A stretch of 5,551 nt of DNA from Treponema sp. (GTDB taxonomy: Bacteria; Spirochaetota; Spirochaetia; Treponematales; Breznakiellaceae): the NCBI GenBank assembly GCA_009786715.1, contig WQRN01000077.1, positions 1 through 5,551 on the forward strand, read 5' to 3'. This document shows, piece after piece, positions 1 to 5,551 of this stretch. Below the pieces are notes generated by a model. It had not been told where the DNA came from, did not search any database, and saw only the letters and a list, made by a program, of their open reading frames with translations. Position numbers and translations under genes: made by a program. Positions within the stretch are counted from its first letter, which is position 1. Each line of letters begins with the position of its first letter.

Positions 1-911
1 TCTATAAATTGAATTTTATCTCCTGAATCCAAACGCTTTTTCAAATCGATGGCTGTAATTGTTTCAATCGGGTCACTGTCTTTATCTTTTTTTAATCCGC
101 AAAATTGTTCGTAGTCGATGAGTTCTTTAATTGACGGATTTTTTCCGCACACAGGACAATTTGGATCTTTTTCCAAATTGAGTTCGCGGAATTTCATGCG
201 CCATGCGTCAAAATGAAGAAGTCGCCCTATTAAAGGTTTAGCCCCTCCGACTATCATTTTAATTGTTTCTGCTGCTTGAATGGTTCCGATAATACCCGGC
301 AAAACTCCCATTACTCCGCCCTCTGCGCATGAGGGAACGAGTCCCGGAGGCGGAGGAGACGGATAGATGCATCTGTAACATGGTCCGTCTTTCGCGTGCG
401 CTTCTCTAGAAGCGCAAAACACGCTTGACTGTCCTTCAAATTGAAAAACCGAACCGTAAATATTTACTTTTCCAAGAAAGACACACGCGTCATTTACAAG
501 ATAGCGCGTTTGAAAATTGTCCGTTCCGTCCGCGACAATATCGTACTCCCCGATTATTTCCATCGCGTTCTTGCTTGTAAGCATTGTGTTATGCACAACA
601 ACATTCACAAAAGGGTTGATGCCTTTGATTCTGTCTTTCGCTGACGCGACTTTCGGTCTTCCTATGTCTTTGGAACTGTGAATAATCTGTCTTTGCAAAT
701 TTGAAGCGTCCACTTCGTCAAAATCAACAAGACCGATTGTTCCGACTCCCGCCGCAGACAGATAAAGCGCAAGAGGAGCGCCCAAACCGCCTGTGCCTAC
801 AATTAAAACTTTCGCGTTTTTTAATTTTACCTGCCCTTCAACGCCGATTTCCGGTAAAAGCAAATGACGGCTGTATCTGGATATTTCTTCATTTGTAAGT
901 TCTAAAGCCAT
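1..911 (-). CDS. moeZ: MoeB/MoeZ-like E1 adenylyltransferase with start of a rhodanese domain, 3'-truncated by window edge
   Basis: Activates the C-terminal glycine of a ubiquitin-fold carrier with ATP and then exchanges AMP for sulfur. The reverse-complement frame from ATG 911 is open for 303 codons to the window edge. Seen: SRYSRHLLLPEIG (11-23), the nucleotide loop GTGGLG (39-44), LVDFDEVDASNLQRQ (61-75) with R74, RPK (85-87), VADGTDNFQTRY (126-137), the loop cysteine in PSCAEGGVMGVLPG (C195) and two zinc pairs CYRC (178/181) and CPVC (252/255). After the zinc region, residues 281-303 (ETITAIDLKKRLDSGDKIQFI) look like the first strand and helix of a C-terminal rhodanese domain, as in MoeZ and MOCS3/Uba4. 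The rhodanese active-site cysteine would lie outside the window. The start is fixed by AGGAGG five bases upstream, within the carrier gene. In context it probably activates the adjacent carrier. With no rhodanese fusion it would be called MoeB. Confidence 0.93.
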   Translation of the reverse strand, partial: MALELTNEEISRYSRHLLLPEIGVEGQVKLKNAKVLIVGTGGLGAPLALYLSAAGVGTIGLVDFDEVDASNLQRQIIHSSKDIGRPKVASAKDRIKGINPFVNVVVHNTMLTSKNAMEIIGEYDIVADGTDNFQTRYLVNDACVFLGKVNIYGSVFQFEGQSSVFCASREAHAKDGPCYRCIYPSPPPPGLVPSCAEGGVMGVLPGIIGTIQAAETIKMIVGGAKPLIGRLLHFDAWRMKFRELNLEKDPNCPVCGKNPSIKELIDYEQFCGLKKDKDSDPIETITAIDLKKRLDSGDKIQFI

Positions 912-1185
912 TATTTCCTCCTGCAATTGCAGGGATTATCATTACTTCACTCTTTTCCGCTACAGGAGTATCAAGTCCTTGAAGGGTGTTGATGTTTTTT
1001 CCGTCGATAAAGAGATTAATAAAGTCACGAAGATTTTTGTTATCTGCAAATAAATGCGTTTTAATATCGGGATAAAGATTTGCAAGAGCGTTTAACGCCT
1101 CGCCTGCGGTTTTTCCTTCAACTTCCACTTCGGCATTACGCTCGGTAAAAGATCTAAGCGCATAAGGTATTAATACATTAATCAT
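889..1185 (-). CDS. MoaD/ThiS/CysO-like ubiquitin-fold sulfur carrier with C-terminal tail
   Basis: Small beta-grasp sulfur carrier of 98 residues. The C-terminal region SEVMIIPAIAGG (79-90) is the classic MoaD/ThiS/CysO ending, in which the last glycine is adenylated and converted to a thiocarboxylate. The middle (EGKTAGEALNALANLYPDI, 23-41) fits the first helix of the fold. The carrier delivers sulfur to the neighbouring cysteine synthase by inference from the CysO system; roles in molybdopterin or thiamine synthesis are less likely, as no genes of those pathways are present. Unusually, the frame does not stop after Gly-Gly but continues for eight residues (NNGFRTYK), so a protease must act before activation; the JAMM gene just upstream is the obvious candidate. 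The start has a good ribosome site (AGGAG, 6 bases). The 3' end overlaps the MoeZ-like gene by 23 bases and supplies that gene's ribosome site. Confidence 0.92.
   Translation of the reverse strand: MINVLIPYALRSFTERNAEVEVEGKTAGEALNALANLYPDIKTHLFADNKNLRDFINLFIDGKNINTLQGLDTPVAEKSEVMIIPAIAGGNNGFRTYK
917..922 (-). promoter_or_regulatory. Ribosome binding site of the MoeZ-like gene, inside the carrier gene
   Basis: AGGAGG lies five bases before the ATG at 911. It is made of the Ala-Gly-Gly codons (GCA GGA GGA) that encode the functional C-terminus of the sulfur carrier, so these bases both code the carrier's reactive end and set the start of the next gene. Confidence 0.8.
920..933 (-). repeat. Perfect 14-base palindrome overlapping the MoeZ-like gene's ribosome site
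   Basis: CCTGCAATTGCAGG reads the same on both strands. In the mRNA it can fold as a 5-base-pair stem (CCUGC with GCAGG) around an AAUU loop; the 3' arm covers the first part of AGGAGG. It encodes Pro-Ala-Ile-Ala-Gly of the carrier. A coupling hairpin opened by ribosomes translating the carrier gene is possible; the pattern could also be chance in coding sequence. Confidence 0.5.
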
Positions 1186-1615
1186 TTTTTGCTCCTATAA
1201 AAATATTTTCACTTTCAAAATTTTTCCTGTCCGCTGTCAACTCCCAGCTTGTTAATTCATCAGATTTTCTCTGCATTATAGATACAATTATATAAGAATA
1301 AAAAGGCAGCGCGTGTTCCTTGTCGTAATCAGACGGCATAGCGGGATGATCCGGGTGCGAATGATAAAAACCTATAACATCCAGTTTTCTTTTTCGCGCT
1401 GTCTGCTCCGCCTGCATCATGTCTTCGGGCGTTATTAAAAAACGATGATACTGTTCTTTATATTCACGCGCATTGCGGATAGCCTCTGTGTATTTTACCG
1501 TTTTAACACCATTATCGTCAATCTCGCCGATTAAAATGCCGCAGCATTCATTGGGGTATGCGCTTTCACCTTCGGCGCGGATAATTTTTTCGTGTTCGGG
1601 AAAAAGGTTGAGCAT
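1178..1615 (-). CDS. JAMM/Mov34 (MPN+) zinc metallopeptidase, Mec-like
   Basis: Zinc isopeptidase/peptidase of the JAMM family; in the M. tuberculosis pathway its relative Mec+ cuts cysteine off the CysO-cysteine adduct. Using the ATG at 1615 it has 145 residues and all active-site residues: the catalytic glutamate in PNECCGILIG (E23), the zinc histidines in HSHP (H85, H87), then S95 and D98 in PSDYD, giving the usual H-x-H-P...S-x2-D spacing. An upstream in-frame ATG at 1630 lies inside the cysteine synthase gene and has no ribosome site. The 1615 ATG has GGAG nine bases before it, overlaps the previous stop as TAATG, and gives a family-like N-terminus, MLNLFPEHEK. The gene overlaps the carrier gene by 8 bases. 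Likely substrates, inferred from context, are the carrier-cysteine adduct and/or the carrier precursor with its C-terminal tail. There is no signal peptide or membrane segment, so it is cytoplasmic. Confidence 0.93.
   Translation of the reverse strand: MLNLFPEHEKIIRAEGESAYPNECCGILIGEIDDNGVKTVKYTEAIRNAREYKEQYHRFLITPEDMMQAEQTARKRKLDVIGFYHSHPDHPAMPSDYDKEHALPFYSYIIVSIMQRKSDELTSWELTADRKNFESENIFIGAKND
1192..1196 (-). promoter_or_regulatory. Ribosome binding site of the sulfur carrier gene
   Basis: AGGAG stands six bases before the ATG at 1185, inside the last codons of the JAMM gene. It supports that start and the 8-base gene overlap. Confidence 0.75.
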
Positions 1616-2517
1616 TAAATATTTCTCCATAACGGTTCAGAGAGATATCGATATCCGTTATCGCAGAGTATGGTTGCGATGCGCGAGCCTGCGGGAAGCG
1701 TTTTAGCGATTTCAATAGCGGCGTGTACATTCGCGCCTGAACTTATTCCCACAAACAAGCCTTCTTCCGCGGCAAGGCGGTGAGCCATTTTATACGCGTC
1801 TTCTGTTTTAACTTCGATACGATTGTCGGCAATACTGCTGTCAAATATTTTTGGATTGATAGTTGTCGCCATGTGCTTCATGCCTTCCAGCCCGTGAAAA
1901 GGCGAATCCGGCTGCATCAGCGTTATCTGAATAGACGCGTCAGTATCTTTTAATTTTTTTGACACACCCATAAAAGTTCCCGATGTGCCTGCGCCGCAGA
2001 CAAAGTGAGTGGGATTGCATTGCTTATAAATTTCATCGCCTGTTGTGTTATAATGCGCCTGCGAATTTTCAAAATTATCATATTGATTCGGAAAAAAATA
2101 TATATCAGGTTTGCTCTGTGCTTCCTTCATGGCGGCATTGTACGCGCCGTCCGAACCTTCAAGCGGACTTGTCTCGGCAATTTGCGCGCCATACGCTCTT
2201 ATTACTTTTTTTCGCTCCATACTTACGTTTGACGGCATAAAAAGTTTAACTTTATATCCAAGAGCCGCGCCGAACATCGCGTATGCGACTCCCGTGTTAC
2301 CGCTCGTGGAATCTAAAATTATTTTATTTTTTGTCAGCTCTCCTGTTTCGATACCATGCAGTATCATTGCTCTTGCAGCCCTATCCTTAACAGAACCGCT
2401 TGGATTCATAAATTCGGCTTTCGCGAATATGCTGACATCAGGAGACAGAGCACCTTTAATATTTTTTAATTCTATAACAGGAGTATTGCCAACCATATCT
2501 AAAATATTATATTTCAT
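1615..2517 (-). CDS. cysM: CysM/CysK-like PLP-dependent cysteine synthase
   Basis: Fold-type II PLP enzyme that replaces the acetyl (or phosphate) group of an activated serine with sulfur; 300 residues. Motifs: MVGNTP (8-13), the PLP lysine in NPSGSVKDRAA (K44), the substrate loop TSGNTG (71-76), the PLP-phosphate loop GAGTSGT (175-181), GISSGA (257-262) and a C-terminal DNGYRYLSEPLW. I chose the ATG at 2517 because homology begins at MKYNILDMVGNTP; the open frame reaches back to 2604, but that part lies inside the acetyltransferase gene and looks unlike the family. The ribosome site is weak (AAGGA, 11 bases away), consistent with coupling to the preceding gene. Lying between the acetyltransferase and a JAMM/carrier pair, it probably uses O-acetylserine with a carrier-protein thiocarboxylate, as M. 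tuberculosis CysM does with CysO and O-phosphoserine. Ordinary sulfide use cannot be excluded. The segment HGLEGMKHM (208-216) differs from the CysK motif GIGAGF. Confidence 0.93.
   Translation of the reverse strand: MKYNILDMVGNTPVIELKNIKGALSPDVSIFAKAEFMNPSGSVKDRAARAMILHGIETGELTKNKIILDSTSGNTGVAYAMFGAALGYKVKLFMPSNVSMERKKVIRAYGAQIAETSPLEGSDGAYNAAMKEAQSKPDIYFFPNQYDNFENSQAHYNTTGDEIYKQCNPTHFVCGAGTSGTFMGVSKKLKDTDASIQITLMQPDSPFHGLEGMKHMATTINPKIFDSSIADNRIEVKTEDAYKMAHRLAAEEGLFVGISSGANVHAAIEIAKTLPAGSRIATILCDNGYRYLSEPLWRNI
1625..1628 (-). promoter_or_regulatory. Ribosome binding site deciding the JAMM start
   Basis: GGAG lies nine bases before the ATG at 1615, inside the last codons of the cysteine synthase gene. 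The alternative in-frame ATG at 1630 has nothing similar in front of it, so the site favours 1615 and a TAATG stop-start overlap. Confidence 0.6.
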
Positions 2518-3505
2518 AATACCAAAATTCCTTTTGATCCAGCTCGATATGCGTAGAAATATTGTTGTTTTTATACTGCAATTCAGGGTTTTTAACGCTG
2601 ACACGCGTTTTTTCCGGTATCGATCTTACAACAAACGCATTGCCGCCGATCACAACGCCTTCGCCAATGATGGTATCGCCTCCTAAAATTGAAGCCCCGG
2701 AATAAACTGTTACGTTATCGTGAATGGTAGGATGTCGTTTAACACCCTTAATACTTTGTCCGCCCTTGGTAGACAAGGCTCCGAGAGTTACACCCTGATA
2801 CAATTTGACATTGTTTCCAATAACTGTAGTTTCGCCAATAACAATGCCTGTGCCGTGATCCATAAAAAAATATTTTCCTATAACAGCGCCGGGGTGAATA
2901 TCAATACCTGTGACGTTATGCGCATATTCACTCATTATTCTTGGGATAAGCGGAACAGAGAGCAAATAAAGCTCATGAGCGATCCTATGAACCATTCCGG
3001 CGTAAATGCCGGGATATGACACAATTATTTCCGCTTTACTGTACGCCGCAGGATCGCCGTTATACGCAGCTTCAATATCCGTATCAAGTTTTTCCTTTAT
3101 CTCAGGTATTTTTGAAATAAACTGATGTGTAATTTTTGCAGCTTCTTCCTCAATTTCGTTTTGTCCGATGTCTTTATAACGTAAATCGTAACGCAGCGCT
3201 AAAGAAATCTGAACGCAAAGATCGCTATATATTTCTTCAAGCATGACGCTTATTCTATTTTTATACGAAAGACTTTGTATTTCCAATGAACCGCGCAACC
3301 CATGCTTATTTACATTTGCGCTTTCAAAAACTCCTGGGAATAATATGTGCTGTAATTGTCCAATCATGGCGACTATAACGGATTTAACAGGCTGTTTTGG
3401 CATTTCGCGTAACTTGTCTTCGGCAGAATCGACTATTATGCCGGTTACCCGTTCTATTTCGGCCATGATTTGCGTTTCTGAAGAACCGCGTGTGTTTTGA
3501 TTCAT
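2507..3505 (-). CDS. cysE: Serine O-acetyltransferase, long N-terminal type
   Basis: Transfers acetyl from acetyl-CoA to L-serine, giving O-acetylserine, the carbon acceptor for cysteine synthesis; cytoplasmic. The protein has 332 residues. Residues 1-190 are the mainly helical N-terminal region and residues 195-300 the left-handed beta-helix of hexapeptide repeats. Catalytic residues seen are D202 in GIDIHPGAVIG and H217 in MDHGTGIVIGE, at the same 15-residue spacing as E. coli CysE D143/H158. H258 in KRHP fits the position of E. coli H193, allowing for a short insert. The insert-bearing motif VTLGALSTKGGQ (239-250) is the form found in longer EpsC-like bacterial acetyltransferases. The protein ends in Tyr-Glu-Ile; a terminal isoleucine is the residue by which CysE docks into cysteine synthase. 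A GAGG ribosome site lies 5 bases before the ATG, 11 bases after the desulfurase stop, and the 3' end overlaps the cysteine synthase start by 11 bases. Acetyltransferase genes are known neighbours of encapsulated desulfurases. Confidence 0.94.
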   Translation of the reverse strand: MNQNTRGSSETQIMAEIERVTGIIVDSAEDKLREMPKQPVKSVIVAMIGQLQHILFPGVFESANVNKHGLRGSLEIQSLSYKNRISVMLEEIYSDLCVQISLALRYDLRYKDIGQNEIEEEAAKITHQFISKIPEIKEKLDTDIEAAYNGDPAAYSKAEIIVSYPGIYAGMVHRIAHELYLLSVPLIPRIMSEYAHNVTGIDIHPGAVIGKYFFMDHGTGIVIGETTVIGNNVKLYQGVTLGALSTKGGQSIKGVKRHPTIHDNVTVYSGASILGGDTIIGEGVVIGGNAFVVRSIPEKTRVSVKNPELQYKNNNISTHIELDQKEFWYYEI

Positions 3506-3510
3506 GCTAA

Positions 3511-3514
3511 CCTC
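3511..3514 (-). promoter_or_regulatory. Ribosome binding site of the serine acetyltransferase gene
   Basis: GAGG lies five bases before the ATG at 3505, within the only intergenic spacer in the window (11 bases, 3506-3516). It supports this start. Confidence 0.65.
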
Positions 3515-3516
3515 AA

Positions 3517-4941
3517 TTATGCAATTTCCCTGATAGCTCTTACCAATGCGTCAATTTCGTCAGGCGTATTGTAAAAAGCGATAGTCGGGCGAACTGTCGC
3601 TTCCAATCCAAAACGCCGTAATATAGGCTGCGCGCAATGATGTCCCGCTCTAACCGCAATTCCATGTTCCGATAAATGTTTTCCAATTTGTTCAACACTT
3701 TTTCCGTCCAGAACGAAAGACAGTGCGCTTGCTTTTTCCTTTGCGGTTCCGATAAGGCGCAAACCGTTTATTTTTTTTAGTTCGCGTGTTGCGTAATCAA
3801 GAAGTTCATGCTCGTAGGCGGCAATGTTTGGAAGACCTAATTGCATAACGTACTCCAGCGCCGCGCCAAGACCGACAGCGTCAGCGATGTTTCCCGTTCC
3901 AGCTTCAAATTTGCTCGGCGCAGGGTTGTAGGTTGTGCGTTCAAAAGTTACGTCTTTGATCATGTTGCCGCCGCCCTGATACGGTTTTGACTCTTCAAGA
4001 GCGGAAGTCTTACCGTATACGGCTCCGATTCCCGTCGGCGCGAAAATCTTGTGACCAGAAAAAACATAGAAATCCGCGTCCAGTTCGCTTACGTTTAACG
4101 GAGTATGAGCGACAGACTGCGCTCCGTCAATTAAAATTCTAACACCGTAACGATGAGCAATTTGAACCATCTCGTGAACAGGAGTAATTGTTCCCAATGC
4201 GTTAGAGACATGAGTAATGGATGCAAACTTTGTACGCCCGGTAAACAATCTTTCGTATTCCGATAAAATTATCTGTCCCGTATCATCAACGGGAGCAACC
4301 TTAATAACTGCGCCTGTTTCCTGCGCGACTAATTGCCACGGAACAATATTCGCATGATGTTCCAAAATAGTCAGGACAATTTCATCGCCTTGTTTTAACA
4401 GCGGTTTCACATAACTTTGCGCGACGAGATTTATCCCCTCTGTCGTTCCGCGAACGTAAACAATATTATCTTTTGACGGCGCGCCTAAAAACCTCGCGGT
4501 AGTTTCCCTTGCCGCTTCATAAGCATCTGTCGAGCGGGCGGCAAGTTCATGCGCTCCTCTGTGTACGTTAGAGTTTTCATGCTCATAAAAGTACGAAATA
4601 CGGTTTATCACCTGACGCGGCTTTTGCGTAGTCGCGCCGTTATCAAGCCATATTAATTGCTTACCGTTGCTAAGTCTCTCACTCAGAATCGGAAAATCCG
4701 CGCGAATACGGTTTACATCAAACGATGATTGTGAATTTGTATTAGAAGATGGTAAACTCGTACCCGGTACAACTACCGGAGAAAAAAAAGATGGATCAAC
4801 ATTATCACATCTTCCATTAAGCTCCGGAAAATAACTCTGCGCCCAATCCGCCAATTCTTTTTCACTTGGCAAACCATAAGAGCTTAACTCTGCTTGTGAA
4901 AACTCCGATTGCGCGAAACTTATATCGTTAGGTGTAATCAT
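3517..4941 (-). CDS. SufS-type cysteine desulfurase, encapsulin cargo with N-terminal extension
   Basis: PLP enzyme that removes sulfur from L-cysteine, giving alanine and an enzyme persulfide; 474 residues. The catalytic core starts near residue 74 (FDVNRIRADFPILSERL) and matches group II SufS/CsdA enzymes: LDNGATTQKP (99-108), ILEHHANIVPW (192-202), the PLP aspartate in IDGAQS (D272), the PLP lysine in SGHK (K298) and the persulfide cysteine in RAGHHCAQP (C436), on the short loop typical of SufS. Residues 1-73 have no counterpart in ordinary SufS, which normally starts at the core. They are Ser/Asn/Pro-rich and contain one amphipathic segment, GLPSEKELADWAQSYFPEL (23-41), and a hydrophobic patch SFFSPVVVPG (51-60). 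In family 2A systems such an extension targets the enzyme into the shell, so I infer the same here. The start overlaps the encapsulin stop by 14 bases with only a weak ribosome site, suggesting coupled translation and matched expression. No SufE or SufU partner is encoded in the window. Confidence 0.95.
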   Translation of the reverse strand: MITPNDISFAQSEFSQAELSSYGLPSEKELADWAQSYFPELNGRCDNVDPSFFSPVVVPGTSLPSSNTNSQSSFDVNRIRADFPILSERLSNGKQLIWLDNGATTQKPRQVINRISYFYEHENSNVHRGAHELAARSTDAYEAARETTARFLGAPSKDNIVYVRGTTEGINLVAQSYVKPLLKQGDEIVLTILEHHANIVPWQLVAQETGAVIKVAPVDDTGQIILSEYERLFTGRTKFASITHVSNALGTITPVHEMVQIAHRYGVRILIDGAQSVAHTPLNVSELDADFYVFSGHKIFAPTGIGAVYGKTSALEESKPYQGGGNMIKDVTFERTTYNPAPSKFEAGTGNIADAVGLGAALEYVMQLGLPNIAAYEHELLDYATRELKKINGLRLIGTAKEKASALSFVLDGKSVEQIGKHLSEHGIAVRAGHHCAQPILRRFGLEATVRPTIAFYNTPDEIDALVRAIREIA

Positions 4942-5551
4942 AGTAATCGCCCACTTCTACGTCTTCAAGAACAGCGATTGCGTCGTCCGCTAAAATTGCG
5001 GCTGAGCAGTAGAGCGACAGCAAGTAAGAAGCGATCCCTTCATCGTCAACGCCTTTGAAGCGGACGGAAAGCCCTCTGGATTGTTCATTTTGTAAACCGC
5101 TCTGATGAAGCCCGATAACTCCGCGCTTCGATTCGCCTGTGCGAATTAATAAAATGTTTGTTTTTCCACCCTTTCCTTTTGGTTTTTTAACACCGTCCAC
5201 GAGTAACTTGTCAGTCGGTACAATTGGAATGCCGCGCCAGAGGATAAAATTTCCGCCGTAAATGTTTATCGTACTCGGCGGTACGCCTCGCCTTGTGCAT
5301 TCGCGGGCAAAAGCGGCAATCGCTCTCGGGTGCGCCAAAAAGAACGACGGTTCTTTCCACACTTTGGAAATCAATTCGTCCAAATCATCAGGCATCGGTG
5401 CTCCCTTAATCGGCGTAACGCGCTGACTGTCCGCAACATTTTTTAACAGTCCGTAATCATCATTATTGATGATCTGGCTCTCCTGCCTCTCCCTCAAACT
5501 TTCAACAGCCAAATTGAGCTGCTCCCTTGTCTGATCGTAAGGTGACGAAAA
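4928..5551 (-). CDS. srpI: Family 2A encapsulin shell protein (SrpI-like), 5'-truncated by window edge
   Basis: Forms the icosahedral HK97-fold shell of a protein nanocompartment in the cytoplasm. The 207 C-terminal residues are present; the frame stays open to base 5551, so the N-arm, the E-loop and part of the P-domain (roughly 110 residues of a ~310-residue family member) lie outside. The visible part begins FSSPYDQTREQLN and carries the spine-helix segment ESLRERQES with INN, then GAPMPDDLDELISKVW (50-65), FFLAHPRAIAAF (70-81), WRGIPI (105-110), RTGESKRGVIGLHQ (137-150), GLSVRFKG (160-167) and the C-terminal AIAVLEDVEV (191-200). These match my memory of SrpI almost block for block. A TTG codon at 5512 could be read as a start, but homology clearly continues upstream of it. 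A Lys/Gly-rich stretch at 121-130 looks longer than in SrpI. It is followed, with a 14-base overlap, by its presumed cargo, the cysteine desulfurase. No cNMP-binding domain (family 2B feature) is visible in the part present. Confidence 0.93.
   Translation of the reverse strand, partial: FSSPYDQTREQLNLAVESLRERQESQIINNDDYGLLKNVADSQRVTPIKGAPMPDDLDELISKVWKEPSFFLAHPRAIAAFARECTRRGVPPSTINIYGGNFILWRGIPIVPTDKLLVDGVKKPKGKGGKTNILLIRTGESKRGVIGLHQSGLQNEQSRGLSVRFKGVDDEGIASYLLSLYCSAAILADDAIAVLEDVEVGDYYDYT

Follow-up and report, generated by a model that had tools for sequence, protein, structure and literature searches.

How a family 2A encapsulin shell, which breaks down cysteine, returns the sulfur is, to our knowledge, not settled, and an Acinetobacter encapsulin of this family is said to accumulate elemental sulfur. 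The question is raised by a 5,551-nucleotide stretch of Treponema sp. DNA (contig WQRN01000077.1; the whole stretch is called the window here), in which genes for a family 2A shell, a SufS-type cysteine desulfurase and a serine O-acetyltransferase stand together with a second module, a cassette of cysteine synthase, JAMM protease, sulfur carrier and E1-like enzyme. In the clade to which this shell belongs, at least two cassette genes were found near the shell gene in 61/85 loci, and the carrier was mostly encoded with residues after its Gly-Gly. Both modules are known singly; what appears to be new is their join, together with the pro-carrier and carrier-E1 fusion form of the carrier. The clade may supply a concrete exit route for the sulfur in the same operon, by way of a carrier system that bypasses free sulfide.

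Recurrence of the joined locus

A species-level genome collection was scanned with a full-length relative of the window shell (P0002), and the best 80 of 128 relatives were kept. Five loci were added, one from an Aliarcobacter cibarius plasmid (L140) and four from whole-genome draws (L153, L162, L164 and L165), giving 85. A cassette gene was counted as linked when it lay no more than 9 kb from the encapsulin, with a carrier fused to the E1 counting as a carrier; because the 80 loci were selected by similarity to this shell, the counts are valid for this clade only. All four cassette genes were near the shell in 52 loci, three in 3, two in 6, one in 4, and none in 20. Many of the 85 loci were cut by contig ends, and among the 29 in which the contig extended for 4 kb or more upstream and 6.5 kb or more downstream, four genes were seen in 22, three in 1, one in 1, and none in 5. 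The desulfurase was within 9 kb in 80/85 loci and the acetyltransferase in 46/85. At 21 other family 2A loci (five on plasmids and 16 from genomes, with one genome contributing two), no cassette gene was found near the shell (0/21); most of these loci could be viewed for about 8 kb to either side, and 5/21 were short. The draws were made from the phyla to which genomes G011, G001, G008, G010, and G009 belong (299, 247, 247, 249, and 199 genomes, respectively), and a shell match was seen in 12, 4, 3, 4, and 10 of these genomes, with the centre genomes, family 2B shells, and a single very weak match counted in. Bacteroidota, Actinomycetota, and Cyanobacteriota were covered only through the plasmids of some.

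Among the 61 loci where two or more cassette genes were linked, 54 had the cassette on the upstream side of the encapsulin and 7, like the window, on the downstream side (L007, L008, L009, L015, L028, L060, and L077, the last of which was inverted). All seven genes, likewise ordered, were also found in L007 and L008, and this recurrence indicates that the gene order of the window is more than chance. In L153, the full cassette was upstream of the shell, desulfurase and acetyltransferase, on a contig of 4,059,867 bases. All-against-all clustering of the reading frames recovered the seven genes as well as many shadow frames; it also returned an ABC-transporter ATPase family, present in 20 loci. 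The survey thus showed a junction that is neither unique nor an assembly join, both of which the earlier note on this DNA had named as dangers to its reading; such explanations were ruled out by the recurrence in many loci.

We also looked for the cassette away from the shell locus in 13 genomes, from 11/20 cassette-free loci and from two loci with only the E1 beside the shell (L058 and L065); the other 9/20 cassette-free loci, all cut near a contig end, were outside this search. A synthase of at least 53% identity was present in 9/13 genomes and an E1 of at least 65% in 12/13, and all four functions were found away from the shell locus in 8/13 (G008, G1250, G1251, G1252, G1254, G1255, G1256, and G1258), with the carrier fused to the E1 in four of these. 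G1249 and G1253 had the carrier-E1 fusion only, G1260 had a fragment of an E1 at the edge of a contig, and G1259 had acetyltransferase, synthase, and JAMM with no E1 or carrier. In G1251 and G1253, the genes in question shared a contig with the shell, at a distance of about 10 kb. As a control, the JAMM was searched in 15 genomes, outside this set, whose shell locus had no cassette; it was found there at 38% identity or higher in 2, as a weak match in 4, and not at all in 9, compared to 4/4 cassette-bearing genomes at 38% or higher. In the two control genomes (G1097 and G1118), the JAMM was beside a synthase on a different contig from the shell; no carrier frame was detected in these unlinked cassettes. 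Given this control and the 0/21 comparison loci, a chance neighbourhood is unlikely.

In a tree of the shell proteins, the window grouped with the Treponema bins L007 and L008, and the nearest shell was 96% identical over 207 columns. Eleven of the 21 comparison loci fell on one side (9/21 were outside the tree), and opposite them was a clade of 86 rows, comprising the window, the 80 scan loci, L140, L153, L162, L165, and L154 (the last being one of the 21 comparison loci), with support of 100/99. This topology places the origin of the join at the base of the clade or close to it. Furthermore, pairwise distances between shells and between cassette proteins were correlated (r 0.65-0.74; 0/999 permutations as high), which speaks for joint descent and not for function, since shared ancestry alone gives such a correlation. 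Recurrence in many loci, the several layouts and the correlated divergence uphold the view of the earlier note that the two modules form one unit, and judged from these sequences, shell and cassette most likely function as one.

Genes of the window and the carrier as a precursor

All seven genes of the window lie on the minus strand, in the transcription order encapsulin, desulfurase, acetyltransferase, synthase, JAMM, carrier, and E1, and the window edges cut the encapsulin at its 5' end and the E1 at its 3' end. With the chosen starts, five of the six gene junctions overlap by 8 to 23 nucleotides, and the desulfurase and acetyltransferase are separated by 11 nucleotides; for the cysteine synthase, we preferred the ATG at 2517 to the GTG at 2604 given in the mechanical list of open reading frames. 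Starts and stops are therefore overlapping or nearly touching, as in a translation-coupled operon. The gene identities, shared strand and overlaps that had been noted before were confirmed by profile matches and coordinates, and the earlier description of the modules as fused was right for an operon and wrong for one polypeptide. Several genes scored below the strict NCBIfam equivalog cut-offs, and some names are therefore given at family level and not as curated equivalogs.

The encapsulin piece (4928..5551) matched PF19307 (E 4.9e-79) and the shell model NF041162 with 348.6 bits, under the cut-off of 380 because the gene is cut; full-length shell relatives passed in 12/12 genomes. P0002 (314 aa) was 100% identical across the window piece, and its residues 9-313 matched the family 2A shell chains 6x8m (360.6 bits) and 8t6r (373.6 bits). 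The cyclic-nucleotide domain that marks family 2B was absent, as judged on P0002, the window shell being cut. The adjoining SufS-type desulfurase (3517..4941), the kind of cargo expected beside a family 2A shell, reached 800.8 bits with the cargo model NF041166 (cut-off 800) and is the predicted shell cargo; it contains RAGHHCAQP, which we take to be the catalytic-loop motif. Its N-terminal stretch, GLPSEKELADWAQSYFPEL, was by eye similar to the LARLANEFFS-like loading motif, and a loose YFPEF-like pattern was found in 53/80 clade desulfurase frames, some of which were cut. A stricter pattern gave 39 matches and, as a weak test for a second cargo, hit desulfurase frames only in the 85 clade loci. 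Six desulfurase relatives (L001-L006) were on viral contigs, with no encapsulin match there.

The serine O-acetyltransferase (2507..3505; NF041874 EpsC type, 157.4 bits, cut-off 150) ends in isoleucine, as did 42/46 clade frames, the other four being three frames cut at contig ends and one likely chance match. The C-terminal isoleucine of CysE docks into CysK. The cysteine synthase (1615..2517; PF00291, E 1.4e-64; TIGR01136, 320.9 bits, cut-off 344) belongs to the CysK/CysM family and scored 309.0 with the cysM model and 277.8 with the cysK model, both under cut-off; its nearest solved chain was 2egu, and the Mycobacterium CysM 3dwg was also among the matches. The JAMM/JAB protease (1178..1630; PF14464, E 4e-25; nearest solved chain 2kcq) contains NEC...HSHPDHPAMPSDYD, presumably the JAMM catalytic motif. 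The E1-like adenylyltransferase (1..911; PF00899, E 5.6e-82) is of the MoeB/MoeZ type (NF004281 MoeB, 298.6 bits, cut-off 266), and its full-length relatives have a C-terminal rhodanese domain with a CKIGQR loop.

In the ThiS/MoaD-like sulfur carrier (889..1185; PF02597, E 6.1e-11; NF041918 SAMP1, 62.5 bits, cut-off 60), the sequence PAIAGG is followed by a tail, NNGFRTYK, that is encoded by the overlap with the E1 gene. The Gly-Gly codons, GGA GGA, resemble a ribosome-binding sequence for the E1 start, the ATG at 911 (911..923). Of the 52 loci in which the carrier has a frame of its own, 50 had 1-69 residues (median 5) after the Gly-Gly of PAIAGG or a close variant, and in 2 the carrier ended at Gly-Gly; the tails had no conserved sequence. 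In 12/75 E1 frames (the 75 include two repeats, L231 and L232 being L058 and L065), carrier and E1 formed one continuous frame, the carrier at the N-terminus and a short linker following its Gly-Gly. These fusions (L009, L015, L018, L023, L025, L162, L222, L224-L227, and L229) came from Fibrobacterota, Spirochaetota, Campylobacterota, Pseudomonadota, and Bacillota bins and one further genome. The solved relatives of the carrier were 1v8c, 4n6e, and the CysO of 3dwg, and the chains 3dwg_C and 4n6e_B end at Gly-Gly.

The earlier note, which spoke of a CysO-type cassette, missed the tail: carrier, rhodanese-E1 (with the rhodanese domain known from relatives), cysteine synthase, and JAMM are indeed encoded together, but the exposed C-terminal Gly-Gly is missing, and for this reason we filed the cassette as a pro-carrier variant and not as CysO proper. 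As read from these frames, the carrier is encoded as a pro-protein. Since the E1 acts on the terminal glycine of the carrier (PMC3227635), trimming after Gly-Gly is needed, and for this the JAMM encoded in the operon is the natural candidate. It probably cuts twice, once for carrier maturation and once for cysteine release. The release of fused ThiS/MoaD domains by JAB proteases had been proposed in a survey from 2006 (PMC1779556). Pro-carrier and carrier-E1 fusion resemble ubiquitin precursors, and the JAMM gains a testable double role.

Pro-carriers are known from the QbsE/QbsD and HcyS/HcyD systems, which, as here, have residues after Gly-Gly and a JAMM and E1 in one cluster; unlike here, they serve siderophore and homocysteine and are not known to include an encapsulin. 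We know of no encapsulin with the mycobacterial CysO route, and no description of an encapsulin with a CysO-type carrier cassette was found in open-licence PMC papers (supplementary tables being outside the scope), in line with the earlier note, to which no case joining both modules was known. Part of the reported rhodanese signal could be this cassette, since MoeZ-type E1s carry a rhodanese domain. The SrpI/CyD locus of Synechococcus elongatus is alike in shell family, in having a SufS-type cargo whose loading stretch is N-terminal, and in its acetyltransferase and CysK neighbours, but it is without JAMM, carrier, and E1, and its desulfurase N-terminal domain has 225 residues compared to about 72 here. 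Family 2A shells are described as adjoining sulfur genes in 13 phyla and as being loaded through the desulfurase N-terminus (PMC8049743). The MoeZ/CysO/CysM/Mec+ route of mycobacteria has the same carrier, rhodanese-E1, synthase, and JAMM, and solved CysO and CysM were among the matches. However, the solved CysO ends at Gly-Gly, whereas the clade carrier has a tail or the E1 after it, and mycobacterial CysM is stated to take O-phosphoserine (PMC3227635), whereas an acetyltransferase gene is adjacent here. In mycobacteria, according to the same source, MoeZ sulfurates CysO, Mec+ releases cysteine, and a desulfurase was proposed as the MoeZ donor (PMC3227635). Operon type 4c of the 2006 survey also combines ThiS/MoaD, E1-rhodanese, JAB, and cysteine synthase, but its row is without encapsulin, desulfurase, and acetyltransferase (PMC1779556).

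A possible sulfur bank and its alternatives

The leading reading, plausible although unproven, is a store-and-recover cycle. By homology, the family 2A shell would pack the desulfurase via its N-terminal stretch, and the desulfurase would convert cysteine to alanine and sulfane sulfur, which may be kept in the shell. On demand, the sulfane sulfur, probably as a small persulfide, would load the rhodanese domain of the E1. The JAMM would trim the carrier after Gly-Gly, and the E1, if it follows the chemistry of its homologues, would adenylate and sulfurate the exposed C-terminus to give a thiocarboxylate. The acetyltransferase would then provide O-acetylserine, the likely synthase substrate given that the acetyltransferase gene is adjacent, and the synthase would combine it with the carrier sulfur to form carrier-cysteine, as expected of its family. 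A second JAMM cut after Gly-Gly would release the cysteine in the manner of Mec+, and one protease would gate both carrier entry and product release. What the sequences themselves show is the gene set, the linkage, the carrier tail, and the fusions. That a single operon banks and re-draws cysteine sulfur by these five steps is, in our estimate, a little short of an even prospect. The wider proposal, a two-way bank with the sulfur re-drawn via a precursor or polyprotein carrier, one JAMM gating both steps, and the unit being passed between phyla in termite and other guts, is put forward more tentatively.

Several points weigh against such a cycle. Breaking down and rebuilding cysteine in one operon would be futile unless timed by other control, and because both halves seem to be co-produced, a useful cycle would need control at the metabolite level or through carrier maturation. 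A search of nine sources (the window and eight loci) against Rfam for an RNA switch gave a tRNA only. Within the shell clade, the basal L154, which branches level with L140 and L162, is without the cassette, and its genome yielded no JAMM. In G1257, the 65% E1 was the one beside the shell; the rest of the genome had an E1 of 54% and no synthase of more than 39%. Furthermore, another CysK-like gene was near the shell in 8/20 cassette-free loci (L011, L013, L014, L016, L019, L026, L033, and L045), as if one cysteine synthase had replaced another, and on this ground the shell system does not require a carrier route alongside. Finally, the carrier scored over the cut-off for SAMP1, a protein-conjugating modifier, and a SAMP-like modification of proteins by the carrier is possible.

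Among the alternatives, a sulfur-limitation operon without a cycle is a serious possibility, though we would not call it probable. The cassette would build cysteine from external sulfane sulfur or thiosulfate, the shelled desulfurase would separately meter sulfur to other users, and the modules would stay together as both are needed under sulfur scarcity and transferred as a unit. SrpI and its desulfurase were reported to increase on sulfate starvation in Synechococcus (PMC8049743), and a MoeZ-type E1 was described as having thiosulfate sulfurtransferase activity, although the authors doubted thiosulfate as the physiological donor (PMC3227635). The eight genomes in which the four functions are encoded elsewhere than beside the shell also favor it. 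However, the linkage has survived rearrangement, shell and cassette divergence correlate, and a dedicated desulfurase adjoining a rhodanese-E1 suggests a hand-over.

We consider improbable a direct relay without storage, in which the shelled desulfurase would be the E1 donor and the thiocarboxylate would serve a use other than bulk cysteine, or SAMP-like protein modification. The SAMP1 score of the carrier agrees with this, as do matches of the JAMM to the desampylase model (78.6 of 130) and of the E1 to the SAMP-activating E1 (323.3 of 450), both under cut-off, but the cassette includes a cysteine synthase in most loci, the acetyltransferase is near in 46/85, and an E1 of about 390 residues would have no predicted way into the shell. 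Least likely is a carrier tail without a role, arising as a by-product of the E1 gene overlap and removed by general peptidases and not by the JAMM: the tails are not conserved, and the E1 start (chosen by a simple rule in 51 loci) overlaps the carrier end in 32/51 and falls at most 15 nucleotides after the Gly-Gly codons in 24/51, but the 12 in-frame fusions require an exact cut after Gly-Gly for a usable carrier, and the JAB release of fused ThiS/MoaD domains suggested in the 2006 survey (PMC1779556) also speaks against it.

Movement, hosts and neighbouring genes

By the submitters' labels, the shell clade includes ten phylum-level groups, and the shell tree required 19 phylum-label changes compared to a minimum of 9 for ten groups, with 6 required for Spirochaetota alone, counts that binning errors or paralogues can inflate. 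In Aliarcobacter cibarius from a poultry carcass, the joined cluster is on a mobilizable plasmid (L140; pACIB, 4025-14539), which fits transfer. This locus has an insertion element between JAMM and carrier and another at the expected E1 end, leaving a rhodanese piece.

The cluster is common to gut bacteria of several phyla, including termite symbionts. For two bin codes, the host is given: Co191 (L007 and L008) stands for a Cornitermes sp. termite and Th196 (L017, L018, L023, and L025) for Termes hospes (PMC7024585). Most of the other scanned bins are, by their naming, presumably also from termite guts; their titles do not say so. Sulfate in the termite gut is described as low (PMC9137090).

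Several family 2A loci were found in single bins, namely, L022, L024, and L053 in Synergistaceae Po218_bin54, L011 and L012 in Treponema Nx346_bin17, and L009 and L045 in Nx346_bin45, and two shells were counted in genome G003. Directly after the E1 of L007, and on the same strand, was a MetQ/MetN/MetI-like ABC transporter (11309-13636); a cysteine transporter was upstream of the cluster in L140, and a family 3 amino-acid transporter faced the operon in L153. In these three hand-picked loci, the transporters fit a salvage of imported sulfur amino acids. Methyl-accepting chemotaxis genes were also seen near the operon in L007 (2662-4866), L083 (12898-14568), and L140 (14831-16231).

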